From Prevotella sp. P6B1 (GTDB taxonomy: Bacteria > Bacteroidota > Bacteroidia > Bacteroidales > Bacteroidaceae), in NCBI RefSeq assembly GCF_000702825.1, contig NZ_JNKF01000014.1, positions 186,001-250,000 on the forward strand: a DNA stretch of 64,000 nt, given 5' to 3'. Below the pieces are notes generated by a model. That model did not search any database. It was not told the DNA's origin and worked only from the letters and a program-made list of their open reading frames with translations. The stretch's first letter is position 1. The number at the start of each line of letters is the position of its first letter. Both the position numbers and the translations under genes were made by a program. Below are positions 23,214 to 61,462 of this stretch, in pieces.

Positions 23214-24557
23214 ATGAACGAAACAATCTGCGCTCTCGCCACAGCCCCAGGTGGCGCTATAGGAATTATAAGAATCTCAGGCCCTAAGTCGCTTGAGATT
23301 CTTTCTCATGTATTTTCAAAGGACCTTACACAAACTCAGCCCAACACCATTCATTATGGGCATATCAAGAACGGCGAAGAGATTATCGACGAGGTTCTGG
23401 TGAGCGTATTCCGTGCCCCCCACTCTTATACGGGCGAAGAGAGTGCAGAGATTTCCTGTCACGGCTCGCGTTACATTCTGAATAAGGTGATAGCCTTACT
23501 GATAGCCAACGGTTGCCGCCAGGCTGGCCCAGGCGAGTTCACCCAGCGTGCCTATCTGAACGGCAAGATGGACCTCTCGCAGGCCGAAGCTGTGGCCGAC
23601 CTGATAGCCTCTACCAATCAGGCTACCCATCAGATAGCCATGAGTCAGCTGCGCGGTCATTTTTCATCAAAGCTCGCCCAACTGCGCGAACAACTACTCA
23701 AGCTCACCTCGCTCTTGGAGCTCGAACTTGATTTCTCCGACCACGAGGATCTGGAGTTTGCCGACCGTAGCGAGCTTACAGAGCTTACCCAAACAATTGA
23801 CAATCATATCACCCGTTTAGCCCAGAGTTTCAAAACAGGGCAAGCCCTCAAGCAAGGCATCCCCGTGGCTATTGTAGGCAAAACCAATGTAGGTAAATCC
23901 ACCCTACTCAATCGCCTACTGAAGGACGATCGCGCCATCGTTTCTGATATTCACGGCACCACCCGCGACACCATCGAAGACACCATCGACATCCATGGCG
24001 TCACCTTCCGTTTCATCGATACTGCAGGTATCAGAGAGACCTCTGACACCATCGAACAGATAGGTATCGACCGCACCTACCAAGCTATTCAAAAGGCCCG
24101 CATCGTTCTTTGGCTCATCGATACCAAACCTTCAAGAGAAGAAATAGACAATATTAAGCAACATTCTGAAAATAAAAAACTTATCATCATCAAAAACAAA
24201 TCTGATAAAGATAGTAACAATAGTTACAATTTGTTAAATACGTCATTTATCGCCATCAGCGCGAAGTTTGGCACTGGGATCGATGAGTTAGAGCGAGCCA
24301 TCTACGAGGCTGCCGACATTTCCACCCTCACAGAGAACGATATCATCGTCACCAACGCTCGCCACTACGACGCTTTGGTTCGCGCCCACGACAAGATCCA
24401 GCGTGTTATCGACGGACTCGAAATGCAACTAAGCGGCGACCTTCTCAGCGAAGACCTCCGCCAAGCCCTCGACACCCTTGCCGAGATCACCGGCGGCCAG
24501 ATAACCCCCAACGAAGTATTAGGAAATATATTTAAAAACTTTTGCGTGGGAAAGTAG
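23214..24557 (+). CDS. mnmE: tRNA uridine-5-carboxymethylaminomethyl modification GTPase
   Basis: With MnmG forms cmnm5U34 in tRNA. The N-terminal folate-binding domain includes ATAPGGAIGIIRISGP and FTQRAYLNGKMDLSQAEAV. The G domain has VGKTNVGKST (about 220), DIHGTTRDT, DTAG and NKSD. The C-terminus is NIFKNFCVGK, keeping the catalytic FCxGK motif. 447 residues, complete. The last 18 bp of the gene are the left copy of the direct repeat that brackets the island. The insertion therefore preserves the protein's end, as with integration at trmE/mnmE in other bacteria (for example SGI1). Confidence 0.96.
   Translation: MNETICALATAPGGAIGIIRISGPKSLEILSHVFSKDLTQTQPNTIHYGHIKNGEEIIDEVLVSVFRAPHSYTGEESAEISCHGSRYILNKVIALLIANGCRQAGPGEFTQRAYLNGKMDLSQAEAVADLIASTNQATHQIAMSQLRGHFSSKLAQLREQLLKLTSLLELELDFSDHEDLEFADRSELTELTQTIDNHITRLAQSFKTGQALKQGIPVAIVGKTNVGKSTLLNRLLKDDRAIVSDIHGTTRDTIEDTIDIHGVTFRFIDTAGIRETSDTIEQIGIDRTYQAIQKARIVLWLIDTKPSREEIDNIKQHSENKKLIIIKNKSDKDSNNSYNLLNTSFIAISAKFGTGIDELERAIYEAADISTLTENDIIVTNARHYDALVRAHDKIQRVIDGLEMQLSGDLLSEDLRQALDTLAEITGGQITPNEVLGNIFKNFCVGK
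24540..24557 (+). repeat. Left attachment repeat (attL) at the mnmE 3' end
   Basis: TTTTGCGTGGGAAAGTAG. The first 16 bases recur at 61393-61408 and the last 15 at 61377-61391. Codes for F-C-V-G-K-stop of MnmE. The gene order changes from housekeeping to mobile functions exactly here. Confidence 0.85.
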
Positions 24558-24633: not shown

Positions 24634-24668
24634 AATATCATCAGCGTTAATCGTTGATGATATTTTTT
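24634..24668 (+). terminator. Terminator just inside the island
   Basis: AATATCATCA (24634-24643) and TGATGATATT (24655-24664) are perfect arms with an 11-nt loop and a run of T residues after. It lies 77 bp after the mnmE stop, so the island supplies a terminator for the interrupted operon. Confidence 0.85.
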
Positions 24669-24724
24669 TCGCTCATTTTTGTACGTTATTTGTACGTTCG
24701 GGAAAAATCCCAACGTCGGCAAAT

Positions 24725-24870
24725 GCTAACTCAATGTCTCCGACTGGCACACGTTGGACACCATTGGATTGCTAACTGATGTCCTCGCGTGGCACACGTT
24801 GGACACATTTGGACACTATTGGACACATTTGAACAGTATTAAGGAATAGTAACATACAAAAATTGGACAT
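24725..24870 (+). repeat. TTGGACAC iteron cluster upstream of the seven-HTH gene
   Basis: TGGCACACGTTGGACAC occurs at 24745-24761 and 24790-24806, each preceded by GCTAACT. The core TTGGACAC is at 24754, 24799, 24809 and 24819, with degenerate TTTGAACA at about 24828 and TTGGACAT at 24863-24870, touching the ATG. The last full copies are exactly 10 bp apart, one helical turn. Likely operators or arm-type integrase sites. Confidence 0.78.
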
Positions 24871-26385
24871 ATGGAAATAGTTAAGAAATGCGAATGGTGT
24901 CACAAAACATTCATTGCACAGATGGTTACGGCAAGATTTTGCAGTAGTAAATGCTGTGATCATGCCTACAGGTACAAAAGAAAGATGCAATCAGGGAAAT
25001 ACACACCCGTAGATGGCAAAACTGATTTGAGTACCCTATCACGAAGAGTGGACGAACGTAAGCGTTTCAAGGAATCTCTAAAGGATAAGCAATTCCTTTC
25101 TCCCTCAGAGGCAGCAAAGCTACTTGGCGTTTGCAGAAGTACCATCTACAATTATCTTTGGCTACACGAACTGAAGGCCAAGCAGTTTCGTGGTAAGACT
25201 ATCATCAGAAGAAGTGACATTGAGAAACTCTTCGATGCAGCTCCTTCCTACAAGAAGCGAGGCAATGTGCAAAAGGGAAAGAAAACTCAAAATGAGTATT
25301 ACTCCCTTAAAGAGATGATGGAGAAATTTAAAATCAGCAAGCGAACTGTCTACCGTAGATGTGAACAGTTCGGTATTCCCCAAATCGTTGAGGGAAAAAG
25401 AACTTTCTGGCGAAAAGAAGACGTTGATGTGCATTTCGCTGAATTGCTTGTTCAATACGATTTAAAGGACTGGTATAATGCCCAGCAAATAGAGGAAATA
25501 TACGGAATGAAGCGTTCCGCCCTTAATAGGTATGTCCTCCGTCATGATGTGCCACGTATCCAGTTTCAGAACGTCACTTATTACTCGAAGAACCACATCG
25601 ATAATCTTAAACGGCTTGCAACAATGCCGGACGAGAACTACTACACCGTTCAAGACATTGTCAAGAACAGCAGTTTCTCTACGTTCCAAGTTCGATATTA
25701 TACCAAAAACGAGAAACTGAAAGCGAAGAGAGTCAACAGGTTACTACTTATCTTGAAGACTGACTGGGATTCCTTTGTTGCAAAATATCAGGCAAACCAT
25801 CTCCCAGAAGCTCCCAAGCCACAAGAACTCAACCCATTCTACACCATTGATGAGATTATAGATAAATATAAGGTAAAGGAAACAACGGTCTATCGCATTG
25901 CCAAAGCCCAGAATATTGATGTCTTTACTTTAGGGGATAAGAAATGCTTCCCTAAAGCAGCCATTGACAATTATTTCGTCAAGGACAATCCAAGCCCAGA
26001 ACTGACACAATGGTACACTTGTGAAGATATCCAAGCGAAATACAGCATGACTTACAATCAAGTCGCTTCTTTCGTCTGTAAACATCATATCCCTCGAAAG
26101 TACGTCGGCACAAAGCCGTACTACTCAAAGCTGCATGTTGACAAAGAGAAGAACATACTCCAGCCTGAGGATGATTACAAGACAGTAGAGGAACTAATGG
26201 CCATGTATCAGATGACTGTCCATCAGGTAAGGGAAGTGATTCGATTCTATCATGTACCGAAGAAGAAATGTGGCAAGTACATCAAGCTCTGTTTACATGA
26301 TTTCAACCGCATCATAGAGGAACGTAAGCAAGGCATAATACCTGCGAAATGTGATATGATGCCCCAAGATTCATTGTCAGTATAG
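24871..26385 (+). CDS. Zinc-ribbon protein with seven tandem excisionase-like helix-turn-helix modules (element A)
   Basis: Not a named family that I recognise. The N-terminus has CEWCHKTF...FCSSKCC, four or more cysteines spaced like a small zinc ribbon. Then come seven units of about 50-65 residues, each opening with an aromatic and a T/S (FLSPSEAAKLLG, YYSLKEMMEKF, WYNAQQIEEIYG, YYTVQDIVKNS, FYTIDEIIDKY, WYTCEDIQAKY, YKTVEELMAMY). Each then has a recognition helix and a short wing (for example SKRTVYRRCEQFGIP), as in HTH_17/excisionase folds. A shorter paralogue with four units lies at 33844-34812 in the same position in element B. I infer a DNA-organising or regulatory factor of the element, perhaps binding the phased TTGGACAC iterons just upstream. 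Base composition is clearly more AT-rich than the core genes. Confidence 0.8.
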   Translation: MEIVKKCEWCHKTFIAQMVTARFCSSKCCDHAYRYKRKMQSGKYTPVDGKTDLSTLSRRVDERKRFKESLKDKQFLSPSEAAKLLGVCRSTIYNYLWLHELKAKQFRGKTIIRRSDIEKLFDAAPSYKKRGNVQKGKKTQNEYYSLKEMMEKFKISKRTVYRRCEQFGIPQIVEGKRTFWRKEDVDVHFAELLVQYDLKDWYNAQQIEEIYGMKRSALNRYVLRHDVPRIQFQNVTYYSKNHIDNLKRLATMPDENYYTVQDIVKNSSFSTFQVRYYTKNEKLKAKRVNRLLLILKTDWDSFVAKYQANHLPEAPKPQELNPFYTIDEIIDKYKVKETTVYRIAKAQNIDVFTLGDKKCFPKAAIDNYFVKDNPSPELTQWYTCEDIQAKYSMTYNQVASFVCKHHIPRKYVGTKPYYSKLHVDKEKNILQPEDDYKTVEELMAMYQMTVHQVREVIRFYHVPKKKCGKYIKLCLHDFNRIIEERKQGIIPAKCDMMPQDSLSV

Positions 26386-26490: not shown

Positions 26491-27603
26491 ATGAACAGAA
26501 GTAACACATGCACAAAGGTAACCGTTCGCCAGGCCAAACTCAAAAACGGAATGATCTCACTCTATCTGGATTTCTATCCTGCCATCCGCAATCCTAAGAC
26601 AATGAAAATGACTCGTCGAGAGTTCCTTGGGATTTACATCTATGCCAATCCAAAGAATCAGACGGAAGATGGATTTAACAAAGACATGCTCATGAAGGCC
26701 GAAGGTATTCGTTGTATTCGTGTACAGTCGCTTATCAATGAACAGTTCGGATTTCTCGACAAGACAAAGCAGAAGGTTGACTTTCTCGCTTATTTCAAAG
26801 AAAAAGGCCGTACTAAGCAACAAAAGTGGGACATGGTGTACAAGCATTTTTTCAAGTACGTAAACGGGAAGTGTACCTTTGGGGAAGTCACTATTGAACT
26901 ATGCAGAGGATTTCGCGAGTATCTTCTCAACGCCCATCAGTTGAAACACACCCGACTGATGCTAAGTCAAAATTCTGCGGCCAGCTACTATTCCATCTTC
27001 AAAGAATTATTGTATATGGCTTATAGAGAAAAGTGGCTGAATGAAAACATCAATGATTATCTCGAAAAGATTGAGACTGTCGATGTACGCAAGGAAACAC
27101 TCACTCTTGATGAGTTGAAGAAACTAAACCAGACTCCCTGCAAGATTCCTGTATTGAAGCAGGCTGCACTATTCTCTTGTCTGACCGGATTGCGTGTTAG
27201 TGACATCCTTAGATTAAATTGGGATAATATCCGCATTGGTAGTGATGGTGGATATGTTATCCAATATCGTATAAAAAAGACTGGCGCAGAAGACACACTC
27301 CCTATAAGTGAAGAAACATTGGAGTTTTGCGGTGAACGCAGTACAGGCAAGGTATTCAAGGGACTTCGTTACAGTATTGTCGGCTATAACTTAAAAGAAT
27401 GGCTGGAGGCTGCTGGTATTGACAAGCACATTACTTTCCACTGTCTTCGTCACACTTTCGCATCCCTTCAGGTAAGTATGGGATCTCCCATCTACACCGT
27501 ATCGAAGATGCTTGGTCACAAGAATGTGACTACGACCCAAATCTATGCTGATTTGAACGATGCCAACAAGCGTAAGGCTTCCGAGCTCATTTCTCTGAAA
27601 TAG
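26491..27603 (+). CDS. Tyrosine recombinase/integrase of element A
   Basis: Site-specific recombinase of the Bacteroides integrase type, presumably responsible for integration at mnmE. The N-terminal arm-binding domain has EFLGIYIYANPKNQTEDGFN; a SAM-like core-binding domain spans about 95-195. In the catalytic domain are Arg in SCLTGLRVSDILRL (about 233), HxxR in TFHCLRHTFA (about 317-320), and GHKNVTTTQIYADL with the nucleophile Tyr near 352. The R..HxxR..H..Y set is complete. 370 residues. Belongs to the same family as the element B integrase (for example LLNAHQLKHT versus LLTAHQLKHT). Confidence 0.93.
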   Translation: MNRSNTCTKVTVRQAKLKNGMISLYLDFYPAIRNPKTMKMTRREFLGIYIYANPKNQTEDGFNKDMLMKAEGIRCIRVQSLINEQFGFLDKTKQKVDFLAYFKEKGRTKQQKWDMVYKHFFKYVNGKCTFGEVTIELCRGFREYLLNAHQLKHTRLMLSQNSAASYYSIFKELLYMAYREKWLNENINDYLEKIETVDVRKETLTLDELKKLNQTPCKIPVLKQAALFSCLTGLRVSDILRLNWDNIRIGSDGGYVIQYRIKKTGAEDTLPISEETLEFCGERSTGKVFKGLRYSIVGYNLKEWLEAAGIDKHITFHCLRHTFASLQVSMGSPIYTVSKMLGHKNVTTTQIYADLNDANKRKASELISLK

Positions 27604-27775: not shown

Positions 27776-28684
27776 ATGAGTATTGACGAATATTTTCACA
27801 AAACGCTGTTTGCAAGCATCATTGTTGGGCCAGCTCTGGCAATGACGCTGCCCTTGGCATACTGGGTTCAATACCAGCACATGTTGCTATTCCCCAGTCT
27901 ACTCTACTATGTAGTGGCTACTGCATGTATCTCTGCTATGTTACACTTCTTCCTATACGTTGTACCAGAAAACTGGCGTAAACGAAAGAAAAAGATGAAG
28001 CACGTAGAACTACGGATGCTCCCCGTTCTCACATCTGATTCATCCCGAGAAGAAAACATACCTATAGCCGACTCCAATACATCCGAGCCTTTTGAGACAG
28101 CAGAATTTGTTGAAATAACAGAGCCTAATGAAACAGTAGAGCCTATTATATATAATAAGGTGATAGAGGAGCCTCCAACTCTTTCCCCTTTAAGCCCCAA
28201 CGCAATTAATCAAGCTCAACAAGAAGAGTCAACAAAGTACAAGAACCTCTTTTATGCCTTTGTTGATAAACACGTTAAGGGGATTATACCAGATGAAGAT
28301 GCCAATATTCTTTTGGATGATATTTACCTCGCTGTAGATAATCGGTTGTTGGAACTGAACACAACAGGACTAAAGCCCCATCTTCCCTACACAGTTAAGG
28401 CCACATCAAAATTCTCGGGTCTCGTTACGGAAGACATCTACCACATTGGTTTTGTAGTGAAGTTCTTCCTCAAAAAACGTAATGAATATGGTGCAGCCTT
28501 CATAAAAGAAGTATTTCCTCATCAGCTTAAAGACGTAGAATTCAGCACCGTTGCAACAAAGTTGTCTTCAAGCGAGTCGAAGAATCTATCTATTCCAATT
28601 CCAGAAGTATGTTGGGGTGACAATCGCTGTATATCGAAGAAATTCAGCGGTCGTATAACAGAAGAACTTATCAAACGAATATAA
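27776..28684 (+). CDS. Two-TM membrane protein of unknown function (element A)
   Basis: Two hydrophobic helices in the first 65 residues (LFASIIVGPALAMTLPLAYW and LLYYVVATACISAMLHFFLY), a basic stop-transfer KKRKKKMKH-like stretch, a long acidic and proline-rich linker (about 80-150), and a folded C-terminal domain of about 140 residues (FYAFVDKHVKGIIPDEDANILLDD...). Element B encodes a protein of the same layout after its integrase (36289-37266). The position suggests a role in element maintenance or transfer. No known domain recognised. Confidence 0.55.
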   Translation: MSIDEYFHKTLFASIIVGPALAMTLPLAYWVQYQHMLLFPSLLYYVVATACISAMLHFFLYVVPENWRKRKKKMKHVELRMLPVLTSDSSREENIPIADSNTSEPFETAEFVEITEPNETVEPIIYNKVIEEPPTLSPLSPNAINQAQQEESTKYKNLFYAFVDKHVKGIIPDEDANILLDDIYLAVDNRLLELNTTGLKPHLPYTVKATSKFSGLVTEDIYHIGFVVKFFLKKRNEYGAAFIKEVFPHQLKDVEFSTVATKLSSSESKNLSIPIPEVCWGDNRCISKKFSGRITEELIKRI

Positions 28685-28819: not shown

Positions 28820-29176
28820 ATGATAGAAGAACAAATACAAAATCTGACAGAGAAAGTCAATCAGCTTACACAACTCGTTTATGAGTTGTCGAAAGCGATT
28901 ACTCCATGTGAGCAATCATCAGTATCTAACCACCATGTCCTCACTGACATTGAAGGAGCCATGCGTATTACTGGCAAGGCAAAGCCCACCATCTATGCCA
29001 ATGCCCGTAAAGGTATCATCCCCCACTACAAAAGAGGTAACAAGCTCTACTTCTACGAGGATGAACTCTACAAATGGATTGAGGGAGGGAAACAAGACTG
29101 CTATGGCATCAATTCCGAGGAGATGCTGAAGGAGATTCGGCAGCGAGTTCATCATCTGCCCAGTAATAACCGCTAA
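28820..29176 (+). CDS. Excisionase-like helix-turn-helix protein (element A)
   Basis: 118 residues: an N-terminal short coiled coil (EEQIQNLTEKVNQLTQLVYE), then a winged HTH_17 domain (VLTDIEGAMRITGKAKPTIY, HYKRGNKLYFYEDELYKWI). Such proteins act as recombination directionality factors or local regulators in Bacteroides elements. It is placed before DUF3987 and the relaxase, as in NBU-like elements. A counterpart sits at 37534-37920 in element B. Confidence 0.75.
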   Translation: MIEEQIQNLTEKVNQLTQLVYELSKAITPCEQSSVSNHHVLTDIEGAMRITGKAKPTIYANARKGIIPHYKRGNKLYFYEDELYKWIEGGKQDCYGINSEEMLKEIRQRVHHLPSNNR

Positions 29177-29187: not shown

Positions 29188-30390
29188 ATGATTAACCAGC
29201 AGTGTTTACCTTTTGAGTGTTTGCAGGTGGAGATTCAAGACATCATCAAGAACTTTGTTGATGTCTATCAGTGTGATGCAGACATCGTTATCACAACCAT
29301 CTATGCCATTGTGAGTATTGCCGTCAACAAGTCCATCAAACTGTTTGACGGCAAATACACCAACTATCCCTCTATGTGGATATGCCATGTGGCTCCCAGT
29401 GGCAGTAACAAGAGTGCGCCAGTGAAGATGCTATTCAAGCCAATCAATGAGCTGAACGAGGAAGCTGTGATGGCTTATTACGAAGAACTACGTAATACCG
29501 ATAGAGGCGATGGGAGCAATAAGCCTAAGCCCATCTGTAAGAAACTGTCACTCACAGATTCCACTCCTGAAGCCATTTACAAGGCTCTATCCTTTATGCC
29601 GCAGATGATATGTCGTGATGAAATCAAGGGAATGATTGATGACTTTGACCGCTATAATCGCAGCGGTATCATAAGTAACTTGCTTTCCATTTGGGACAGT
29701 ACCAGTTTCTGCATAGACCGTAAGACAGAAGACCCTGCTTTTATCCGAGAGCCATTTCTGGACATGCTTGGTAGCATCCAACCAGGGCTATTAAAGTCCA
29801 CGTTTGGTAATCCACAGTTGATGGTCAGCGGCTTTAACCAGCGTATCCTCTTTGTTTTTCCCGACAAGGTTCCTGTCAACTACTATTCAGACAAGCAGCT
29901 CAGTGAAGCTATTATGCCCTATTGGACGAACTTCGTGAGGGAACTCATTAAGTTGGAGCCTACTACGTTATCACTAACCCCTGAAGCGAAAGATTATTAT
30001 TGCACATACTACAATATGTTGCAAGACAAAAAGAGTTCTGCCGATGATTACATGCAGTATGTCTATAGTAAGTTGCAGATTATCATCCTCCGCTGGTCTA
30101 TCGTTACCCATCTGTTATGGGAGAAGAGTTTTGAGTACTATAAAAAAGACACTATCTCTGGAGATGAAATGCTTCATTCAGTCCAGTGTATGCTCTATTT
30201 TGAATGTGCTGCTGAGAAGGTCTATCAAGAAATAAGCGGAGGAATGTATCAAGGTTACACCAAAGAGCAGAGTTTGAAGATACTGTATAACTCCTATGGT
30301 GGTGAGGTTAATCTTCAGAAATTGGCTGACGCACTTGGCTGTTCACGCCAATATGTGAGCAAGGCAGTCAATAAGAAAGACCTAAGTTGA
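29188..30390 (+). CDS. DUF3987 domain protein (primase/helicase-associated)
   Basis: Recognised as DUF3987, a family common in Bacteroides mobilizable elements and often linked to replication-initiation functions. A P-loop-like PSGSNKSAPVK follows WICHVA near residue 70, with MICRDEIKGMIDDFDRY resembling a Walker B segment. The C-terminus (GGEVNLQKLADALGCSRQYVSKAV) is a helix-turn-helix. 400 residues, apparently complete. It may support replication of the excised circle; this is inference from context. Confidence 0.75.
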   Translation: MINQQCLPFECLQVEIQDIIKNFVDVYQCDADIVITTIYAIVSIAVNKSIKLFDGKYTNYPSMWICHVAPSGSNKSAPVKMLFKPINELNEEAVMAYYEELRNTDRGDGSNKPKPICKKLSLTDSTPEAIYKALSFMPQMICRDEIKGMIDDFDRYNRSGIISNLLSIWDSTSFCIDRKTEDPAFIREPFLDMLGSIQPGLLKSTFGNPQLMVSGFNQRILFVFPDKVPVNYYSDKQLSEAIMPYWTNFVRELIKLEPTTLSLTPEAKDYYCTYYNMLQDKKSSADDYMQYVYSKLQIIILRWSIVTHLLWEKSFEYYKKDTISGDEMLHSVQCMLYFECAAEKVYQEISGGMYQGYTKEQSLKILYNSYGGEVNLQKLADALGCSRQYVSKAVNKKDLS

Positions 30391-30659: not shown

Positions 30660-31997
30660 ATGGGAAAAAAGACATGCATACATTTCGACCCTGTTAAGCC
30701 AGGGTGTGAGATTCACAATTGGCGTATGAAGGAACTTGATTATGTCATCAAGGGACTTACACTAAACAACGAACACTGGGTTGATCCTCGATACGAAGGA
30801 AAGACCTTATCAGATATTCGCAAAGAAATCGCAGAACGTTATCAGGCCACCGTCGGACAGAAGATGCAGGCAAAAGCAGCTCCTATCCGTGAGGCAGCTG
30901 TCGTCATCAAACCTGATACGACGATGGCTGACCTGCAACTGTTGGTAAAGCAACTTGAAAAGGAGTTTGGCATCAAGTGCATTCAGATTCATATCCATAG
31001 GGATGAAGGTTTCAGCAAGACCAATCCTGACCCTTCGAAGTTGAACCTGCATGCTCATTTTGTGGCAGATTGGACACACGACGATGGCACTTCACTTCGT
31101 CTGGGGCGTCCAGATACCTCAAGAATGCAGACCGTTGCGGCAGAATGTCTTAAGATGGAACGTGGCAGCAGTTCTAACGTAAAACACCTCAATGCCATAC
31201 AGTACAAAGAGAAAAAGGCTCTTGATAATATCTCTTCCCTTAGGTCACTTGTTCGCAAGTCTTTTCTCTCCAAGGATGCTAAAAATGCACTCTACAAGAA
31301 AATCGACCAACTAGTAGAGGATCTAAAGGCAGACCCATTGAACATCGAACTTCAGCAACAGGTGGAGCAACTGACAGAAAAAGTCTTGCAACTTCAGGCG
31401 GATATAGAGCGACGGAAACAACTGCACGAACAGGATCAAAAAGTCATTTCGGCTTTAAGGGATGAAAACAAGCTTTTGCGCAACAACAATGAACAGAATG
31501 CAGCCCTCAACGAGAAGGCTCATAAAGAGATTGACAGCCTACGTAAGGAGAATATGGATTTGAGACGCAAAGCATATCCAGAGCGATATGTCCTACCCTC
31601 CTTCATCGACGTAGAAGCCACCCATGCTTATAAGGACAAACAGGGACAGTGTCACATTACGATGAAGTTTACAGGTGGCTCCAAGCAATATAATGAGATA
31701 ATGAGCAACGAGGACTTTATGGCTTTCAAAAATGGTAGCCTAACGAAGGAAGAAGTTATTGCCAAGTATCACAAGTCCCGCATCGAAGCCTATATCCGCA
31801 GAGAGTTTTCACGACCCGACAAACGTTCTGCCACTTTATCCCTCATAGAGAGAACCATCTTCAGTTATATGAAACTCTACTCCAGTTCTGCTTACGTCCC
31901 TCTATCCAATGGTGACAACAACCCTCGCAAGCGAAGAAGCTATGATGACATAGACGATATGAACGACGAAGAACGTAAAGGGATAGCATATAAGTGA
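30660..31997 (+). CDS. MobV/Pre-type relaxase (plasmid mobilization enzyme)
   Basis: Nicks DNA at oriT to start mobilization by a helper conjugation system. Conserved N-terminal residues include IHIHRDEG (about 115-122) and LNLHAHFVADW (about 130-140), the histidine cluster that binds metal in MobV relaxases, preceded by REAAVVIKPDTT. From about 215 to 320 is a long coiled coil (EQLTEKVLQLQADIERRKQL...). 445 residues, complete. No coupling protein or type IV secretion gene is nearby, so transfer would depend on helper elements. Confidence 0.88.
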   Translation: MGKKTCIHFDPVKPGCEIHNWRMKELDYVIKGLTLNNEHWVDPRYEGKTLSDIRKEIAERYQATVGQKMQAKAAPIREAAVVIKPDTTMADLQLLVKQLEKEFGIKCIQIHIHRDEGFSKTNPDPSKLNLHAHFVADWTHDDGTSLRLGRPDTSRMQTVAAECLKMERGSSSNVKHLNAIQYKEKKALDNISSLRSLVRKSFLSKDAKNALYKKIDQLVEDLKADPLNIELQQQVEQLTEKVLQLQADIERRKQLHEQDQKVISALRDENKLLRNNNEQNAALNEKAHKEIDSLRKENMDLRRKAYPERYVLPSFIDVEATHAYKDKQGQCHITMKFTGGSKQYNEIMSNEDFMAFKNGSLTKEEVIAKYHKSRIEAYIRREFSRPDKRSATLSLIERTIFSYMKLYSSSAYVPLSNGDNNPRKRRSYDDIDDMNDEERKGIAYK

Positions 31998-32317: not shown

Positions 32318-33022
32318 ATGAATAGAATGAGATACTTTCGACTTATGGACGGTGTAGATGCCAATACTGAAATCCACCAATATATGGATTTGGACTACTT
32401 ATTACGTCTTCTTGAAACACGTTCATACTATGTAAAACAGAAGCAAGAATTCCCAGATAAGCACGAAAGCAGATTACCACTAAAAGCGATGTTTAGTTTA
32501 CAATCTGTTGAACTAAGGAGCTATAAAGGAAAAACAACAGATATAGCAGAATCTTTAGAAAGGAGAAGGAAATTCACAGAAAGTGGTCGTATGTTTACTG
32601 CTTGTTGGACTGAACGGAGAGGAGAAGGTGCTTTAATGTGGAAGAATTTCACGACAAAGATTGGAGGATGTATTAAGTCTACCATCAATAATTTCGTGGC
32701 TTCTTTTGCAAATGATGACTATGATATTTGTTGTGGAAGGATGTCGTATACAGGTATATATGCGGGACAAGATTTCGTGGAAAGCCTATTCACCAAAGAC
32801 AAAGCATTTGAAGAGGAAAAGGAAATCCGCTATTATTTCACCCCGAAGAAGGATATTTCAAATAGTAAAGGTATATCTATACCTATCTTGCCTGATGTGA
32901 TGATAGACGAGATAATACTATCCCCATATATTGAGTCTAAGGCACAGGACATATTAAAACAAATCATAAGCGAAAAATACGATATTAACGTTACATCCTC
33001 AAAAATAGAACTGAAATTATGA
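32318..33022 (+). CDS. DUF2971-like protein
   Basis: Recognised from the DUF2971 pattern: YLLRLLETRSYYV near the start, MFTACWTERRGEGALMWKNF (about 92-111), then GGCIKSTINNF and FEEEKEIRYYF. Function is unknown; DUF2971 genes are often seen in accessory and defence-rich regions, which is context, not proof. Very AT-rich, unlike the relaxase upstream. Its stop overlaps the start of the BspA-like gene (ATGA), so the two are cotranscribed. It is preceded by the nested hairpin. Confidence 0.65.
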   Translation: MNRMRYFRLMDGVDANTEIHQYMDLDYLLRLLETRSYYVKQKQEFPDKHESRLPLKAMFSLQSVELRSYKGKTTDIAESLERRRKFTESGRMFTACWTERRGEGALMWKNFTTKIGGCIKSTINNFVASFANDDYDICCGRMSYTGIYAGQDFVESLFTKDKAFEEEKEIRYYFTPKKDISNSKGISIPILPDVMIDEIILSPYIESKAQDILKQIISEKYDINVTSSKIELKL

Positions 33023-33492
33023 GACAACTATCTAAAATTGTAAGTCTGCTAACAATTATGCTTTCCCAAAGTATATGGTCATATTCTTATGATTTTGAAG
33101 TGGAAGGTATTTACTATGGTTATAATCCGAGTAGTCAAACTGCATATGTAACTAGTGGAGATAAAGAATATGAAGGAGATATTACTATTCCTTCGACAGT
33201 GACTTTCAATGGAAGAACCATGAATGTGACAAGTATTGCATCTAGATCATTTTATAGAAACCAAAAGTTACGTTCGATATCTATTTCAGACGGAATAACT
33301 TCCATTGGGGATGAAGCATTCTATTGTTGCACACTCTTAAGTAGTATTACGTTACCTAATACATTATCTTCTATTGGTATTGATTATTATGCAAGTCAAG
33401 GGGTGTTTTATGGTTGCCAAAGTCTTAAATCTATTATAATTCCTGATGGAGTAAAATGTTTGGAGCGCAGAACATTTAGAGTATGTATCTAA
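33019..33492 (+). pseudogene. BspA-like leucine-rich repeat protein, N-terminal part (split by element B)
   Basis: Signal peptide (LSKIVSLLTIMLSQSIWSYS), then BspA/LRR_5 repeats: ITIPSTVTFNGRTMNVTSIA, FYRNQKLRSISISDGITSIG, FYCCTLLSSITLPNTLSSIG and IIIPDGVKCLERRTF. The frame then runs only four residues (RVCI) to a stop in sequence belonging to element B. The matching C-terminal half is at 59136-59948. Joining TTT (33475-33477) to GAT (59136) is in frame and restores the F-x-x-C-x-x-L repeat spacing (F-D-G-C-S-N-L). The intact protein would be a surface adhesin-like protein of about 420 residues. Confidence 0.85.
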
Positions 33493-33495: not shown

Positions 33496-33843
33496 GGTAT
33501 AAACAACCAGGAATATCTAATACTAACTGCGCATAAAGCGCTCATTTTCAATAGCTTTTGATTTTTAACACTTGATGGTTGGAATTTGGTAGTAACCGAA
33601 TTTCAGTATATTTTTGCAACGTATTTCTACCGCGAGGAATTTACGGGGCTTCGATTTCATCACTTTGCGGACTCAGTTGACAAAGGGTTACGACGGGATG
33701 CAAAGGGTGACAAAAAGGGACGGACGGATTCAGTTAGAGTCACGAAGCGGACGGAGTTGGCATAGGTTGACGAACGTGGAGTATGGTTGACTTAACGGTA
33801 GGGATGACAAAATGAACGTTGAACCATCAAAAGTGACAAGGAA
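33493..33843 (+). repeat. Iteron-like GTTGAC/GNTGAC cluster at the left end of element B
   Basis: No gene. Purine-rich sequence with repeated TGAC cores: GTTGAC at 33676, GGTGAC at 33706, GTTGAC at 33766 and 33786, GATGAC at 33803 and AGTGAC near 33832, plus GGACGGA repeats (about 33720 and 33749). Spacings are mostly 20 or 30 bp. Same place, relative to the tandem-HTH gene, as the TTGGACAC cluster in element A. Confidence 0.62.
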
Positions 33844-34812
33844 ATGAAGCAAGTCAGAAAGTGCAAGTATTGTGGAAAGGAGTTCGTGGCAAGGAGCGGA
33901 ATGCAGAAGTATTGTTGCGAGGAGTGTCAGACGAAGGCGAAGGAAGCCAGAAAGAAGCGGCAGCAGGACTTCATGAATGCTGTGGAGCCAGTCATTGGGT
34001 TACAGAATCAGGAGTACCTCACGTTTGCCAAGGCTGCAATACTGATGGGATGCTCTCGTCAGTATGTGTATAAACTGGTGAACGAAGGGAAACTGGCGGC
34101 ATCGAGAATCAGCAGTCGTATGGCTTTTATCCGCAAGGCAGATATTGAGAAGATGCTGGCGGGGAATCCGTATCATCGGGTGTTACCAACGAATAGGCCG
34201 AAGAAGTCCACGCCCCAAACGACAAAGAGAAGTAAGTCAAATGTCATGAGTGTGGAGAGTAATGTCCAAGAGTCGAAGGTACTCGACTATATTTCCGGCG
34301 AGGAGGTCATGAGAATATATAAGGTCAAGAAGTCATGGCTCTATACCTCAGCGAAGCGGAACCAAGTGCCAGTATGCCGGATTGCTGGGATGAACTACTA
34401 CAGCCGCAAGCACATGGACGCATTGTTTGGCAAGTCGGCTGAAGTGGAGGCCGTCAGTGAGTGGCTGACTATGAAGGAGGCTCAGGAACTCTACGGCATG
34501 AGTGCTGCATCTGTCCGCTCCAACGCTTATCGCCATCATATTCCTACAAAACGGGAATATGGCCAGACCTACTACTCAAAAGACCATTTTGGGCAATTGA
34601 GACGCACAGACATCGTGAATGATAACAGCTACTACACTGTGAGGGAGGCGGCAGAGAAATATGGGATGAGTACTGCCAACGTCGGCATCATCGCCAAGAA
34701 GAATAGCATCGTCACTGTCAAGGTTGGCGTGAAGAATCTTATTCCAAAAATGGACTTCGACAGGGTAATGGCTGAAAGACTGGCCCAATTTGGCAGCTAC
34801 TCCCTTGTATGA
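33844..34812 (+). CDS. Zinc-ribbon protein with four tandem helix-turn-helix modules (element B)
   Basis: Paralogue of the seven-module protein at 24871. The N-terminus CKYCGKEFVARSGMQKYCC...C has the zinc-ribbon cysteines. The four modules start YLTFAKAAILMGCSRQYVY, YISGEEVMRIYKVKKSWLY, WLTMKEAQELYGMSAASVR and YYTVREAAEKYGMSTANVG, each followed by a wing such as MNYYSRKHMD. A 60-residue lysine/serine linker separates modules one and two. The module number is variable (four versus seven), while the zinc ribbon, the position before the integrase and the upstream repeat cluster are shared. Function inferred as element regulator or recombination accessory protein. Confidence 0.8.
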   Translation: MKQVRKCKYCGKEFVARSGMQKYCCEECQTKAKEARKKRQQDFMNAVEPVIGLQNQEYLTFAKAAILMGCSRQYVYKLVNEGKLAASRISSRMAFIRKADIEKMLAGNPYHRVLPTNRPKKSTPQTTKRSKSNVMSVESNVQESKVLDYISGEEVMRIYKVKKSWLYTSAKRNQVPVCRIAGMNYYSRKHMDALFGKSAEVEAVSEWLTMKEAQELYGMSAASVRSNAYRHHIPTKREYGQTYYSKDHFGQLRRTDIVNDNSYYTVREAAEKYGMSTANVGIIAKKNSIVTVKVGVKNLIPKMDFDRVMAERLAQFGSYSLV

Positions 34813-35001: not shown

Positions 35002-36195
35002 ATGTATATGAGCAACATCTGTAAGACCGTGACCCTCCGCACACGGAAAATCAAAGGCGGAGAACAACTATCGTTCTATCTGGACTACTATCCGGGTTAT
35101 CGCGACGAGTCAACAATGAAGGTTATGCGCCACGAAAGCCTTGGTATCTACATCTATGCCAAGCCGAAGAACCAGCGCGAGAAGGACTACAACGACCGTA
35201 TGCGCGAGAAGGCCGAGGCCCTGCGCTGCCGTCGCTATGAGAGTATTGTCAACGAGCGCTACGACTTCTTCGACAAGGAGAAGATGAAGGGCAACTTCCT
35301 CGACTACTTCAAGGACAAGGCGTACAAGAAGAACACGAAGTGGGAGAATGTCTATCTCCATTTCAAACAGTTCTGCAATGGCAAGTGCCGCTTCGACGAG
35401 ATCAATGTGGACTTGTGCAACCGCTTCCGTGAGTATCTCCTGACAGCCCACCAACTCAAACATACCGAGCAGCTTCTGCACATCAATAGTGCTGCGGGCT
35501 ATTGGTCAACCTTCCGCGCCGTGCTCCACACGGCCTACCGCGAGCACAAGATTGTCGAGAATCCCAATGGCTTCCTGGAGCGCATCGACACCATCCCCAC
35601 GGAAAAGGAGCACCTGTCTCGTCAGGAATTGGTCAACCTTGCCAATACGCCATGCTCTTCACCTGTGCTAAAGAAAGCCTTCCTCTTTTCTTGTCTGACG
35701 GGTTTAAGAAAAAGTGACATCAAGCAGCTGACTTGGAACAAGATCCAGCCCTATGGTGACGGTTCTATGTACATCACCCTCCGCATGCAGAAGACGAAGG
35801 AACTGGTGAACAACCCCATCAGCAACGAGGCTCTGGAACTGATAGGCTATAATGATGGCGATGAGAACCGTAAACCGACAGACAAGGTCTTTGTCGGCTT
35901 CAACGACAGCCTCACCCAGGCCCCGTTGAAGAACTGGCTGAAGGAGGCTGGCATCACCAAGCACATAACCTATCACTGTAGCCGCCATACACTGGGTTCG
36001 CTACAGGTTGAGGCAGGCACCAGCGTCTATACCGTCCAGCATATTCTTGGCCACAAGAACGTCGCCACGACGCAGATCTATGCCGCCATGGCCGACTCCA
36101 GTAAGCGCGAGTCCGTTGACAAAATTACGCTGAAATCCGCGAAAATAGCCCAAATGAAGGTCGAAGAGGTTAAAAAGGCTTTACAGGAGTGTTAA
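35002..36195 (+). CDS. Tyrosine recombinase/integrase of element B
   Basis: Full integrase of 397 residues, likely responsible for insertion of element B into the BspA-like gene. Arm-binding domain ESLGIYIYAKPKNQREKDYND; core-binding domain to about 205; catalytic Arg in SCLTGLRKSDIKQL, HxxR in TYHCSRHTLGS, and GHKNVATTQIYAAM with the Tyr nucleophile. Closely resembles the element A integrase in domain order and motifs but is clearly different, consistent with a different target. G+C is higher than in element A. Confidence 0.93.
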   Translation: MYMSNICKTVTLRTRKIKGGEQLSFYLDYYPGYRDESTMKVMRHESLGIYIYAKPKNQREKDYNDRMREKAEALRCRRYESIVNERYDFFDKEKMKGNFLDYFKDKAYKKNTKWENVYLHFKQFCNGKCRFDEINVDLCNRFREYLLTAHQLKHTEQLLHINSAAGYWSTFRAVLHTAYREHKIVENPNGFLERIDTIPTEKEHLSRQELVNLANTPCSSPVLKKAFLFSCLTGLRKSDIKQLTWNKIQPYGDGSMYITLRMQKTKELVNNPISNEALELIGYNDGDENRKPTDKVFVGFNDSLTQAPLKNWLKEAGITKHITYHCSRHTLGSLQVEAGTSVYTVQHILGHKNVATTQIYAAMADSSKRESVDKITLKSAKIAQMKVEEVKKALQEC

Positions 36196-42678: not shown

Positions 42679-43281
42679 TTATTTCTTAGTAATTCCACCA
42701 ACGACATCATCATTTTCGATGCTATGCTCGGTTTTCTTGACGTTGGCTTTAAGAGACCCGAAGCGCCAAGTGACGGAGATACTGAACGAACGGGCACGAT
42801 TCCACGACTTCTGATAATCGCGATAGTCACCATTGACGGTCTCGGCCTCTGATGTCCAGTAATTGTTGAATGGGGCGTTAGCACCAAGGCGCACCGTCAG
42901 GCGGTCATCCTTGAGGAACGAGCGTTGCAGGGAGAAGTAGTAACCATAATAGGAATGTTGCATGTAGTAGATGCCTGAGGGACTATGGCCAACCTTGCCG
43001 TATGTGACTGCATAGAATAGCAACTTCCAAGGTAGCTTTTGAGAGAGGTTCGCATAGAAGTTGTCAGACCACCCAAAGGTGCGATAGCCAAGGTTGGGGT
43101 TCTCGTTGTGCTCGTAATGCAGATTATTGTTGATGACAATCGTCGTACCATTGAATGGCTTCCACTGTATGTATTGCTCTATCGAGAATCGACGATAGCG
43201 AAGAATGTTATCGTATGTGTTATAACGGATGTCGTTTTTAGCGGTCTGGACGGAGCTGATGCCGCAGGAGCGGGCTATAGG
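42679..43281 (-). pseudogene. Outer membrane beta-barrel protein, C-terminal fragment
   Basis: The C-terminal 200 residues of a TonB receptor-like/OMP beta-barrel family protein: alternating aromatic strands (FSIEQYIQWKPFNGTTIVIN, YYMQHSYYGYYFSLQRSFL) and a near-terminal barrel strand ARSFSISVTWRFG followed by a short charged tail. There is no signal peptide or plug, and the frame upstream runs into the AbiE control region. A further piece of the same kind of protein, also on the minus strand, lies beyond the abiE operon (45006-45121). This suggests that the operon interrupted the gene. Confidence 0.72.
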
Positions 43282-43311
43282 TTGTTTTTTTATCACTTTT
43301 TTAAGAAAAAA

Positions 43312-43351
43312 TTTGGTTTTGCCACAAATTTGCTGTAAATTTGTGGCAAAA
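43312..43351 (+). promoter_or_regulatory. abiE promoter embedded in a perfect 15-bp inverted repeat
   Basis: TTTTGCCACAAATTT (43317-43331) and AAATTTGTGGCAAAA (43337-43351), spacer 5 bp. TTTG (43312-43315), 20 bp, TAAATTTG (43336-43343) forms a consensus promoter whose -7 box lies in the right arm. This is the expected layout for autorepression by the antitoxin. Confidence 0.85.
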
Positions 43352-43360
43352 TTCGTTATC

Positions 43361-43969
43361 ATGGCTAATCAAAGTACATATAATGACATTAAAAAGCAAG
43401 TGGAATTATCGGAAAGGGGAACACTCTTCTTTCCCGATACATTCTCCCAGACAGGCTCTTCGGATGCTGTCCGTTCCGCTTTGGTGCGGTTGTGCGAGAA
43501 CAATGTCCTTATCCGTGTAGCACAGGGAATCTACTACTACCCCAAAATTGACACGAAATGGGGAAGTGGCCTGATACCTCCGTCTATAGAGGAAATAGCC
43601 AAGGGCATTGCCAAGCGGGATAAGGTGCGTATAGCCCCGACAGGCTCGTATGCCCTCTATCAGTTAGGTTTAAGTACCCAGATACCTGCCAACATCGTCT
43701 TTATCACAGACGGCTCTCCTCGCCGTATAACTATCGGGAAAGGTAGGGGAATACTCTTCAAGCATACCTCTGAGATGCGCACATTCGCATACCAGTCTCA
43801 GATTATGACGCTGATAGTGACCGCCATGCGAGAGATTGGCGAAGGCAATGTTACTGATGAGCAGATGGGGATTATAAAGACCCATCTGGAGAAAGTGAAC
43901 GAAGAAGACTTCAAGCATGATATTCAACTTGCACCTATCTGGGTGCGCAAGGCGCTAATGAACAAATGA
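43361..43969 (+). CDS. AbiEi-like antitoxin/transcriptional regulator (DUF6088)
   Basis: 202 residues from ATG 43361 (MANQSTYNDIKKQVELSER). The N-terminal winged-helix (FFPDTFSQTGSSDAVRSALV, LCENNVLIRVAQGIYYYPK) is typical of AbiEi antitoxins, which bind inverted repeats at their own promoter. The C-terminal part (APTGSYALYQLGLSTQIPAN, VFITDGSPRRITIGKGR) matches DUF6088/AbiEi. The stop overlaps the toxin start (ATGA). A longer frame to 43229 would run through the operator and is rejected. Neutralises the toxin and represses the operon, by family knowledge. Confidence 0.86.
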   Translation: MANQSTYNDIKKQVELSERGTLFFPDTFSQTGSSDAVRSALVRLCENNVLIRVAQGIYYYPKIDTKWGSGLIPPSIEEIAKGIAKRDKVRIAPTGSYALYQLGLSTQIPANIVFITDGSPRRITIGKGRGILFKHTSEMRTFAYQSQIMTLIVTAMREIGEGNVTDEQMGIIKTHLEKVNEEDFKHDIQLAPIWVRKALMNK

Positions 43970-44970
43970 AATTCATAGAATTATCCTTAGAGGAACGACA
44001 GGACATACTCCGTAGGGTACAGGCAGAGAACGGAATGGACCTGCAGATAATAGAAAAAGACTGGTGGGTAACCGCAGTCCTTCATTCCCTGTTCTCACTT
44101 CCCTATGCCAGTCATATCTCCTTCAAGGGAGGAACGAACCTCAGTAAGTGCTGGGGACTTATCAAGCGCATGTCAGAAGATATAGACATCGCCATTGACA
44201 GAGAGTTTTTAGGCTTTGAAGGACAGTTGTCAAAGACACAGATCAGCGACAAGCTCCGCCGTGCAGCGTGTTCCTTTGTCCGTGAAAGGCTCCAATTTGA
44301 ACTGGCAAACCAGATGGAGAAGGATGGCATCGGCAAGGACAGTTTCAATGTGCATGTCAACATTACGCCAATATCCACCACAGACCCGGAAATCATAGAG
44401 GTGGAATACAAACCCGTCTTCAACGATAATCCCTATATCCGGTCAAAGGTTATTGTTGAGGTTAGCGGACGTTCCATGAGTGAGCCTGTAAAGGAAGTCA
44501 GACTGCACTCATATATAGATGATGTATATAGAAATGCTCCTTTTACCGAGCCGGATTTTGAAGTGAGGGCTGTAGTCCCTGAGCGGACATTCCTTGAGAA
44601 ACTGTTCCTCCTGCATGAGGAATACCACAAAGCGGCAGAAAACGTCAGGACGTCAAGGATGTCAAGACACCTGTATGACATCTGCCAGATAATGGACACT
44701 CCGATAGCAGAACAGGCATTGAAGGACAAGAAACTATATCTGTCTGTTATGGAGCACAGACGTGTATTCATCGGTCTCCGGGGCTTTGACTATTCAACAC
44801 TGTTGCCACAGACTTTAAACATCGTGCCACCTGCTGACATTTTGGAAAAATGGAGGCAGGACTATAAGGAGATGCAGAACTCAATGATATACGGTGACTC
44901 TCCGACCTATGAGCATCTTATCGAGAAATTGCGGATGCTAAATGACAAAATCAATAAACTTGAATATTGA
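43966..44970 (+). CDS. AbiEii-like nucleotidyltransferase toxin
   Basis: 334 residues of the AbiEii/AbiGii (DUF1814) family. The nucleotidyltransferase signature is SFKGGTNLSKCWGLIKRMSEDIDIAI (given here in parts: GGTNLSKCWG, SEDIDIAID), with the two Asp metal ligands. VPERTFLEKLFLLHEEYHKA is the conserved downstream block. Members transfer nucleotides to tRNA and give abortive phage resistance or stabilise mobile DNA. Overlaps the antitoxin by 4 bp. Probably helps retain element B. Confidence 0.9.
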   Translation: MKFIELSLEERQDILRRVQAENGMDLQIIEKDWWVTAVLHSLFSLPYASHISFKGGTNLSKCWGLIKRMSEDIDIAIDREFLGFEGQLSKTQISDKLRRAACSFVRERLQFELANQMEKDGIGKDSFNVHVNITPISTTDPEIIEVEYKPVFNDNPYIRSKVIVEVSGRSMSEPVKEVRLHSYIDDVYRNAPFTEPDFEVRAVVPERTFLEKLFLLHEEYHKAAENVRTSRMSRHLYDICQIMDTPIAEQALKDKKLYLSVMEHRRVFIGLRGFDYSTLLPQTLNIVPPADILEKWRQDYKEMQNSMIYGDSPTYEHLIEKLRMLNDKINKLEY

Positions 44971-47762: not shown

Positions 47763-47794
47763 GACATAATTAGACGGAATTATGTCTACCTTTG
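47763..47794 (+). promoter_or_regulatory. susC promoter with adjoining 9-bp palindromic operator
   Basis: GACATAATT (47763-47771) and AATTATGTC (47778-47786) are perfect arms with a 6-bp spacer and abut TACCTTTG (47787-47794). The palindrome fills the -33 region, where no TTTG is found, as expected for an activator-dependent promoter. Confidence 0.8.
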
Positions 47795-47833
47795 CAGCAT
47801 ATTTCTTTAATCAGTAACAAAAAGCTAAAAGTA

Positions 47834-50824: not shown

Positions 50825-50866
50825 CAATTGAAAACTGATAATTGAAACATACAAATTATTATCACA

Positions 50867-52606: not shown

Positions 52607-52637
52607 GAATTGAGAATTTATAATTGATAATTAAGCT

Positions 52638-54164: not shown

Positions 54165-54182
54165 AAACCAAAACAAGCAACA

Positions 54183-57771
<3,589 letters not shown>

Positions 57772-57881
57772 AATGATTGTTTTCATTCATACATTTAGGT
57801 TAGTTATAGTTAGTAATTGTAAGTTGGAAGACACGATGTTTTCGTAATATCGTGCCTTCTCGTTTAAAAATAGGAAAGAAA

Positions 57882-60040: not shown

Positions 60041-60289
60041 TCACTTCCTCATCAGCTTGGCATACCACTCTTCGTCTGGATGGAATCCGAAGAAGGCTTT
60101 TCCATCACCACCTAAATCCCAAGAACGCATTACCTCGAAGGACTTGAAGGGAAGAAGATGATCATTACCCTGATGTAATAACACATGCGCCTTCCGGCGG
60201 AACTTGCGGCTACTTGCCTGCTTTCCTTTCTTCTGCGACTTACAGCAACACCATGTACTTCCAGGCATTCGTTTTCTACTTCTACTCAT
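60041..60289 (-). CDS. Conserved small basic protein of unknown function
   Basis: 82 residues from ATG 60289: MSRSRKRMPGSTWCCCKSQK, a lysine/arginine-rich middle (RKFRRKAHVLLHQG) and WDLGGDGKAFFGFHPDEEWY near the end. I recall similar proteins as hypotheticals in Bacteroides and Prevotella genomes; the PGSTxCCCKSxKKGKQ pattern and the WDxGGDGK motif seem conserved. Three adjacent cysteines could bind metal. It sits in element A between the BspA fragment and the HigBA pair. Function unknown. Confidence 0.6.
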   Translation of the reverse strand: MSRSRKRMPGSTWCCCKSQKKGKQASSRKFRRKAHVLLHQGNDHLLPFKSFEVMRSWDLGGDGKAFFGFHPDEEWYAKLMRK

Positions 60290-60775: not shown

Positions 60776-60792
60776 ATTTGTACCTCCTTATA

Positions 60793-61092: not shown

Positions 61093-61100
61093 ATTCGGTG

Positions 61101-61210: not shown

Positions 61211-61376
61211 CACCGCATAATGCAAAACAGATGATGATACTCTTCTGAGTGAAGAGCGAGTTAAGTGGAAGACCTGTCAATGAACTAAAAGGATAAGAAC
61301 CACGAAATTCTATTTCCCAAAATTCATTTGTACGGTTTAAACTATAAAAAGCAGCATATCAACAAGATATAGATGC

Positions 61377-61408
61377 TGCGTGGGAAAGTAGATTTTGCGT
61401 GGGAAAGT
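61377..61408 (+). repeat. Right attachment repeats, two tandem copies
   Basis: Copy 1, TGCGTGGGAAAGTAG at 61377-61391, equals bases 4-18 of the mnmE-end repeat. Copy 2, TTTTGCGTGGGAAAGT at 61393-61408, equals its first 16 bases and is followed by GA, so it still spells F-C-V-G-K-stop. The two copies are 20 bp apart. Copy 2 is plausibly the original chromosomal mnmE end. Confidence 0.82.
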
Positions 61409-61462
61409 GATATGAGACTACGTTATATCAATTTGTCATTACCTGCACCTATTTCAAATTCG

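Follow-up and report, generated by a model that had tools for sequence, protein, structure and literature searches.

A gene for a chain of seven small DNA-binding modules that lies directly behind a run of short direct repeats raises the question of which part of the protein reads the DNA. We met this arrangement in a stretch of 64,000 nucleotides from Prevotella sp. P6B1 (contig NZ_JNKF01000014.1, positions 186,001 to 250,000; hereafter the window, with positions counted from its first letter), where a plus-strand open reading frame (ORF; 24871..26385, ATG start, 504 aa) encodes a zinc ribbon followed by seven winged-helix modules. A first-pass annotation had proposed a beads-on-a-string binder, the seven modules of one chain lying along the repeats. 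By homology over the zinc ribbon and the modules, we assigned the protein to the TnpA family of Tn4555-like elements (26% identical to Tn4555 TnpA, blastp E = 9e-38, aa 1-305). Comparison with its relatives established, as far as sequences can, this family membership, the pitch of the repeats, the linkage to an integrase gene (int), the joint exchange of array and N-terminal part, and a correspondence between the first module (module 1) and the repeat unit. The same comparisons support the view that protein and iterons form a cognate pair.

The protein matched HTH_17 in Pfam (E = 6.7e-31) and the 'excisionase family' model TIGR01764 in NCBIfam (E = 1.3e-13). A hidden Markov model (HMM) built from its own units placed seven modules of about 52 aa each, starting at aa 75, 143, 201, 257, 323, 381 and 436. 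Seven winged helices also appeared in an AlphaFold2 model of the full protein (mean pLDDT 69); the pTM of 0.23 makes the placement of modules relative to one another unreliable, and single domains only were used, with no geometry derived. The zinc ribbon and seven helix-turn-helix (HTH) units described earlier were thus borne out, the units being predicted HTH folds. Cysteines C7, C10, C24 and C28 of the zinc ribbon were invariant across four homologue alignments (A3-A6). The top solved-structure matches of the predicted model fell on module 1 (aa 72-125), namely Pukovnik Xis (52 residues, rmsd 1.6) and BldC (50 residues, rmsd 1.3), each with a Z of 8.3, which the tool grades as middling. A profile of the N-terminal sequence likewise retrieved Pukovnik Xis (4j2n, E = 2.5e-6), and the protein matched the PHROG 'excisionase and transcriptional regulator' (E = 3.6e-28). 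Foldseek with a two-module model returned zero matches at E ≤ 0.001.

Upstream of the ATG, TTGGACAC occurs at 24754, 24799, 24809 and 24819. The last three copies are exactly 10 bp apart, as the first-pass annotation had stated, and period tests placed this spacing beyond chance. With box and unit borders set by eye, we delimited a proximal array (24789..24838, +) of a box GTGGCACACG and four 10-bp units (24799, 24809, 24819, 24829), and, from the pattern of the clade, a distal array (24744..24773, +) of a box CTGGCACACG and two 10-bp units (24754, 24764). The 8-mer TTGGACAC itself is not rare, with 5 copies in the window against 2.1 expected and 8 of 100 shuffles reaching 5. With up to 3 mismatches allowed, the only two matches to the phased triple in the 3.6-Mb genome overlap and are both this array; the upstream region gave z = 4.5 at lag 10 against dinucleotide shuffles. 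Orthologous arrays at the same site differed by exactly one 10-bp unit (the row of locus L034, on the wrong strand, was disregarded in this alignment). A further variant that had been described as touching the ATG is indeed present at 24863-24870, but lies outside the 10-bp phase and is not kept as TTGGACAT in the orthologues.

To place these features in a family, we collected relatives from several samples. The seven-module protein had matches in 157 of 398 genomes of the genus sample and in 31 of 100 genomes among relatives; at the level of the phylum, 96 of 395 genomes had matches at E ≤ 0.001, many of these being short and with a single HTH. Pooling 55 and 14 loci from genome and contig searches, 60 hand-picked among the matches listed, and the window gave 123 multi-module ORFs with 2, 3, 4, 6, 7 or 8 modules, some truncated and some from duplicate places. 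Zinc ribbon and start were present in 112, and 59 non-redundant loci remained after removal of those more than 90% identical or with less than 200 bp upstream. An array score of 6 was passed by 47 loci, 40 of them with at least four modules, and a score of 8 by 39. The automatic finder of 10-bp segments picked CGGA in L094 and L115 and T-rich stretches in L139, L153 and L158, and found none in L016; L016 and other low-score loci were left out, and mis-picked ones were kept. Module spacing was stereotyped, at about 58 aa between modules 2 and 3 and about 56 aa between modules 3 and 4 in nearly all proteins listed, and the seven-module proteins fell into a block of four and a block of three modules, separated by a longer linker. 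Where 500 bp or more of downstream sequence was available (56 loci), an integrase homologue came next on the same strand in 54, with a median gap of 129 bp.

The 10-bp period proved to be a property of the family. Lag autocorrelation of the 59 upstream regions against dinucleotide shuffles gave Stouffer Z values of 25.5, 13.0 and 6.9 at lags 10, 20 and 30, compared with -0.3 and -0.4 at lags 21 and 31. Further positive lags were 11 (8.5), 12 (5.1), 22 (4.5), 39 (4.3) and 13 (3.5). The lag 11 signal probably arises in part from TTTGTACC-type repeats 11 bp apart farther upstream, since in the last 130 bp alone lag 11 fell to 3.6 against 22.0 for lag 10. Single loci reached a lag-10 z of at least 2 in 50 of 59 cases, so that homologues lacking an upstream repeat cluster, which would have spoken against the first-pass annotation, are not the rule. 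Against 168 control upstream regions of other genes from the same loci the difference was marked (Mann-Whitney p = 7e-25), 83% of the family loci lying above the 95th percentile of the controls. We drew a second set, of 22 loci, from viral contigs, from plasmid and phage records and from other genomes of the phylum; its Z was 12.2 for lag 10 compared with 9.4 for lag 11. This set is partly independent: 4 of its 22 loci are more than 90% and 6 more than 80% identical to the first set, and it is non-redundant only within itself; without the loci above 90%, lag-10 Z was 10.8 (18 loci). The letters of the unit differed from clade to clade (TTGGACAC, GTGAGACAC, GTGGAACAC, GTTGACA, ATGCGACAC, CACGATG, TACACG, ATGGCACA, ACTTAT). 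Across the loci compared, it is the pitch that is conserved and not the letters.

If one module faced one unit, longer chains should face longer arrays. The survey of module number against iteron number suggested in the first-pass annotation found no such correlation: among the 39 loci of 59 that passed the higher score, Spearman rho was -0.07 (p = 0.66), and mean array length was 5.2, 4.5, 4.4, 4.5 and 5.0 units for 2, 3, 4, 7 and 8 modules (n = 4, 2, 20, 11 and 2). The similarity of units instead followed the identity of module 1. In a rank regression over the 40 loci with at least four modules, module 1 had a beta of 0.37, which 0 of 2000 permutations reached, while modules 2, 3 and 4 gave p = 0.12, 0.29 and 0.03. 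Over 47 loci the weights were 0.11 for the zinc ribbon (p = 0.012), 0.42 for module 1 (0 of 2000 permutations) and 0.11 for module 2 (p = 0.037); these regressions cover the zinc ribbon and modules 1-4. The zinc ribbon alone was considered as the reader and set aside as weaker than module 1 (beta 0.11 vs 0.42), although it lies inside the exchanged block described below.

Natural exchanges pointed in the same direction. Identity between L072 and L073 is 99% over modules 2-4 and 45% over module 1, and their units are TTTTACG and TGGAACGC (similarity 0.29); L010 and L075 are 97% identical in modules 2-4 and 29% in module 1, with units TGAGAC and GTTGAC (0.41); L005 and L040 are 76% and 50% identical, with units TGTGGATGC and TGAGAAAG (0.29). 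The converse is seen between L010 (four modules) and L041 (eight modules), where module 1 is 71% and modules 2-4 are 33% identical and the unit similarity is 0.94. At the DNA level, L072/L073 and L010/L075 showed 96-100% identity from -200 to -100, a drop to 36-68% between about -100 and +400 relative to the ATG, and 80-100% again between +400 and +2050; the divergent block of L005/L040 was wider and less sharp (about -150 to +550). Because a 96% identical copy of the L075 version occurs in L144, from a genome of a different family, an assembly error in L075 is less likely. The array, the zinc ribbon, the linker and module 1 therefore behave together as one specificity cassette, about 500 bp long, that can be exchanged.

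We also used module 1 to predict units in the second set, comparing each new locus with the first-set member nearest by module 1. For the 14 of 22 loci with a usable segment, mean unit similarity was 0.67 vs 0.35 expected, a value that 0 of 20000 random draws reached, and the predicted unit ranked 1 or 2 of 47 in 11 of 14 cases. Four of these 11 fitting loci were near-copies (module 1 91-100% identical). The remaining 10 loci, with module 1 only 43-57% identical, ranked 1 or 2 in seven cases, with clear arrays in L140, L146, L155 and L157.

Module 1 of the window protein (25090..25245, +; aa 74-125) is accordingly listed here as the putative reader of the 10-bp units. Modules 2-7 (25297..26331, +; aa 143-487) are under purifying selection: against four orthologues Ka/Ks was 0.04-0.08 for modules 2-7; module 1 gave 0.05 and the linkers gave 0.14-0.16, all these values being rough as Ks was near or above 1. 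Given these ratios, modules 2-7 would not be relics and must, on this evidence, serve another purpose, which may be the att core, target DNA or the integrase.

The surroundings place the array in an att arm. The host gene mnmE (23214..24557, +), identified from its ORF and the flanks of relatives, contains the insertion target at its 3' end, and an attL core-like repeat TTGCGTGGGAAAGTAG (24542..24557, +) marks the left end of the element, here called element 1. This repeat recurs at 61376 (1 mismatch) and 61395 (2 mismatches), and orthologous insertions retain it in slightly varied form. Next to the left end, within the element, come an inverted repeat that forms a hairpin before a T run, a probable terminator (24634..24671, +), and two copies of the direct repeat TTTGTACGTTA (24678..24698, +), probable arm-type sites of the integrase; the motif TTTG[CGT]A[AC] lies upstream in 47 of 59 relatives, and a single TTTGTACG is found near the right end (61327-61334). 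Behind the seven-module gene lie a tyrosine integrase (26491..27603, +; PF00589, E = 2.3e-24; 47% identical to Tn4555 Int), an ORF that by position takes the place of tnpC and is without a family match (27776..28684, +), and a single-HTH protein (28820..29176, +), a probable conventional excisionase by its similarity to that of the Tn4555 record (32% identity over 106 aa, E = 1.7e-13). They are followed by a DUF3987 protein assigned by family match (29188..30390, +) and a probable mobilization protein (30660..31997, +). The latter was named by place and by eye, without a family match; it resembles an unnamed ORF that precedes cfxA in the record of Tn4555 (31% over 213 aa, E = 1e-25). The ORF in the tnpC place and the DUF3987 protein had no match among the Tn4555 proteins at 1e-3. 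Orthologous insertions in other Prevotella genomes share the DNA from 24543 to about 32000 where contigs extend.

From these comparisons we infer a mechanism that covers binding, stoichiometry, the task of modules 2-7 and autoregulation. We consider it reasonably probable that the protein is a TnpA-type factor of which each chain reads one unit with module 1, that it assembles like an excisionase filament, and that modules 2-7 are engaged elsewhere. The protein would act as an accessory factor in an integrative mobilizable element similar to Tn4555. The first winged helix of each chain would read one 10-bp unit, and four or five chains would align head to tail on the proximal array, probably with two more on the distal array in the clade of the window. 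The assembly of one module 1 per unit is suggested by known excisionases and BldC, in which each repeat carries one winged helix. On the left att arm, between the probable integrase arm sites and tnpA-int, this would build a nucleoprotein filament. Modules 2-7 would not read the repeats and would be free to grip the att core, target DNA or the integrase. According to a review, Tn4555 insertion becomes essentially random once tnpA is deleted (PMC5704250), which would fit modules 2-7 gripping DNA or integrase and agrees with a role in targeting or as an architectural factor. The filament might in addition act as a repressor of its own gene, since in relatives the array lies between a promoter-like TAnnTTTG and the ATG. 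Of the 59 relatives, 35 carried this motif upstream, compared with 6.7 loci in shuffles (maximum 14); 34 of 41 copies fell between -250 and -175, mostly beyond the array; the seven-module gene of the window has no exact TAnnTTTG within 250 bp upstream. We put forward more tentatively that module 1 anchors the filament on the att arm while the other modules capture target DNA and present it to the integrase; the seven-module form would then display 24-30 outward winged helices on the proximal array.

Several observations weigh against this reading. Nine of the 59 upstream regions had a lag-10 z below 2, and 15 second-set loci less than 60% identical to the first set gave nearly equal Z at lags 10 (10.6) and 11 (9.1), or 6.4 and 4.1 in the last 100 bp; the pitch there is therefore 10 to 11 bp and not strictly 10. 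In the prediction test, L139, L153 and L158 were counted as fits on a T-rich stretch with no clear array, and L135, L147 and L148 failed. Module 1 of the window protein is 60-65% identical to that of TGAGAC readers (L041, L042, L044, L047, L050), and yet despite this TGAGAC-type module 1 the window unit is TTGGAC (unit similarity 0.35-0.68); the relation is therefore not simple, and few module 1 residues would carry the difference. The zinc ribbon and linker lie inside the exchanged block and may contribute to reading, and the window protein is not itself among the chimeras, its module 1 being assigned from relatives. Target genes do not follow module 1, and a targeting role rests on Tn4555 genetics as told in the review (PMC5704250). 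Finally, in many proteins four modules face four units, and one chain per array could account for them.

That last arrangement returns to the string of beads, in which one chain lies along the array with one module per 10-bp unit and any additional module reads an additional unit. In L008, L009, L010, L055, L070 and L075 a four-module protein faces an array of exactly four units, the size of a module suits one helical turn, and the seven-module chain is by its spacing a 4+3 protein whose clade has a second, distal array. Module number is nevertheless uncorrelated with array length, proteins with two or three modules face 4-5 units, and a change of module 1 alone coincides with a change of all units where modules 2-4 are 97-99% identical; the modules within a chain are moreover divergent, while the units are near-identical. 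Since units track module 1, we judge the string decidedly unlikely, and the proposal that seven modules of one chain follow the sites was not upheld. The related suggestion of a role at the left element end or in recombination architecture is supported in that the array lies in the left att arm, a place expected for the binding of an architectural recombination factor, but not for a single chain along the sites. It is quite unlikely, too, that the protein is itself the excisionase, that is, the recombination directionality factor (RDF), of the element. The Xis-like winged-helix fold, the PHROG match given above, the position beside int and att-arm direct repeats with the one-turn spacing seen for RDFs would all suit this role; a separate single-HTH protein resembling the Tn4555 excisionase is, however, encoded downstream, and Tn4555 itself has tnpA plus an annotated excisionase gene.

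A role solely as autorepressor of the tnpA-int operon, with cassette exchange as an immunity-like diversification between co-resident elements, seems unlikely to us. The upstream TAnnTTTG of 35 of 59 loci, the joint exchange of operator and reader as in a phage immunity region, and the different units of the two family members in the window are in its favour. It would leave unexplained the 1-7 further conserved modules, the position beside int and the effect of tnpA on insertion-site choice reported in the review cited above, and it meets the absence of an exact TAnnTTTG in the 250 bp before the seven-module gene of the window. In favour of targeting through a matching iteron array in the chromosome, tnpA deletion is reported to randomise Tn4555 insertion (PMC5704250). 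We give this reading hardly any credence, as a search of the genome allowing up to 3 mismatches found no second array, insertion at mnmE is common to relatives whose units differ greatly, and L009 sits at mnmE with the module 1 and unit type of the inserters into leucine-rich repeat (LRR) genes. We retain the filament anchored by module 1 as the most likely reading.

The choice of target was surveyed in the same loci. A mnmE homologue was the left flank in 26 of 59 loci (Pfam MnmE confirmed for the flank of L070), 16 of 59 left flanks formed one cluster of BspA-type LRR genes (plus the second element of the window; four Pfam-checked), and 5 of 59 loci, all two-module relatives, lay at the 3' end of dnaK (two checked). 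The script that assigned targets left out 12 of 59 flanks, including that of the second element. As a predictor of a shared target, the area under the curve over 44 loci was 0.83 for module 1, 0.86 for module 2 and 0.74 for the integrase, values that are confounded by descent. The idea that module 1 sets the target gene was rejected on account of L009. Insertions of the Tn4555-like clade into LRR genes cut near a Cys codon of a repeat. L075, which combines modules 2-4 of the mnmE clade with a Tn4555-like module 1, sits in another gene, and about 255 bp before its tnpA gene host sequence resembles the mnmE core (TCTGCATCGGTAAGTAG), possibly the mark of an off-target insertion.

A second member of the family lies in the same window. 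It has a zinc ribbon and four modules (33844..34812, +; 57% identical to Tn4555 TnpA, blastp E = 4e-140) and precedes a tyrosine integrase (35002..36195, +; 62% identical to Tn4555 Int). Upstream, we recognised by eye a distal array (33676..33715, +) of four GTTGACA-type 10-bp units and a proximal, degenerate one (33755..33794, +) of four units of the same type; the arrays of elements 1 and 2 thus carry different units. Element 2 (33489-59137) splits a BspA-type LRR gene into parts at 33019-33492 and from about 59139, junctions being placed by eye. As this LRR gene is itself inside element 1, we apparently see a mobile element within a mobile element. Besides the TnpA relative and the integrase, element 2 encodes a ParA-like ATPase, a MobB-like protein and an AbiEi/AbiEii toxin-antitoxin pair (43229-44970; PADLOC E = 8e-63 and 1e-100), and, by eye from ORF translations, it appears to hold a SusC/SusD-type polysaccharide-use cluster (47792-58874). 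Between the mobilization-like and LRR genes of element 1, the ORF at 32318-33022 matched the candidate defence family PDC-S31 (E = 1e-14).

At the right end of element 1, repeat search found two att-like repeats 19 bp apart (61376..61410, +). L059 and L061 share this end from 61191. The two copies in the window, compared with one in L061, are perhaps the trace of an earlier insertion and loss. Close by, 60041-60403 is 90% identical to L059, and the minus strand within 60041-61100 may encode a HigBA-like pair, as read from the sequence.

Taken together, the proposal offers a testable mechanism for how TnpA of Tn4555-type elements affects insertion-site choice, and natural exchanges assign DNA reading largely to one module ahead of experiment. 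The module that reads the element would be separable, within one chain, from modules serving another purpose, and the clades with TTGGACAC, GTGAGACAC, GTGGAACAC, GTTGAC, CACGATG, TACACG and ACTTAT provide a set for deriving a winged-helix recognition code. If the other modules do capture target DNA, anchor and capture specificity would reside in separate, recombinable parts of one protein, and operator and reader would be swapped together in one ready-made cassette, some 500 bp long.

Already known are the TnpA family by name and helically phased direct repeats as a mode of RDF action. In the parts of the literature open to our search (including PMC5704250, PMC8138268 and PMC13183296; the original Tn4555 papers lay outside it), we found no account of TnpA modules or iterons and, within the same limit, no description of tandem modules, phased arrays or a module 1-array cassette for this family. 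A search for a tandem HTH excisionase in Bacteroides found nothing, most subscription papers being outside its reach. The nearest system is Tn4555 itself, whose record from a Bacteroides faecis plasmid has the order tnpA, integrase, tnpC, excisionase, ATPase and carries the beta-lactamase gene cfxA. Its TnpA shares the zinc ribbon and winged-helix modules (57% identity with the element 2 protein, 26% with the seven-module protein), lies like ours just before int, and is followed, as in element 1, by the tnpC-place ORF and the excisionase; by eye, two four-unit arrays precede its tnpA. It differs in having four modules against seven (4+3), in the unit GTTGAC against TTGGACAC, and in its insertion site.

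The RDFs lambda Xis, phage 186 Apl, Pukovnik Xis and RdfS share the winged helix and the att-arm repeats one turn apart; in element 1 the att core starts at 24542 and the arrays, as putative binding sites, span 24744-24838. In known excisionases, according to PMC7498355 and PMC11963761, one winged helix occupies each direct repeat, head to tail and about one helical turn apart. Those factors are single small domains, whereas the present family has 2-8 modules and a zinc ribbon, with the first module as the presumed reader, and the element of the window has a separate excisionase-like gene. BldC of Streptomyces resembles module 1 in its winged helix (Z 8.3), but it is a single-domain developmental transcription factor, in contrast to a multi-module protein linked to int. 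BldC is not known to be linked to an integrase. According to PMC5859096, BldC forms head-to-tail oligomers on varying numbers of direct repeats, with 9 bp per subunit at whiI.

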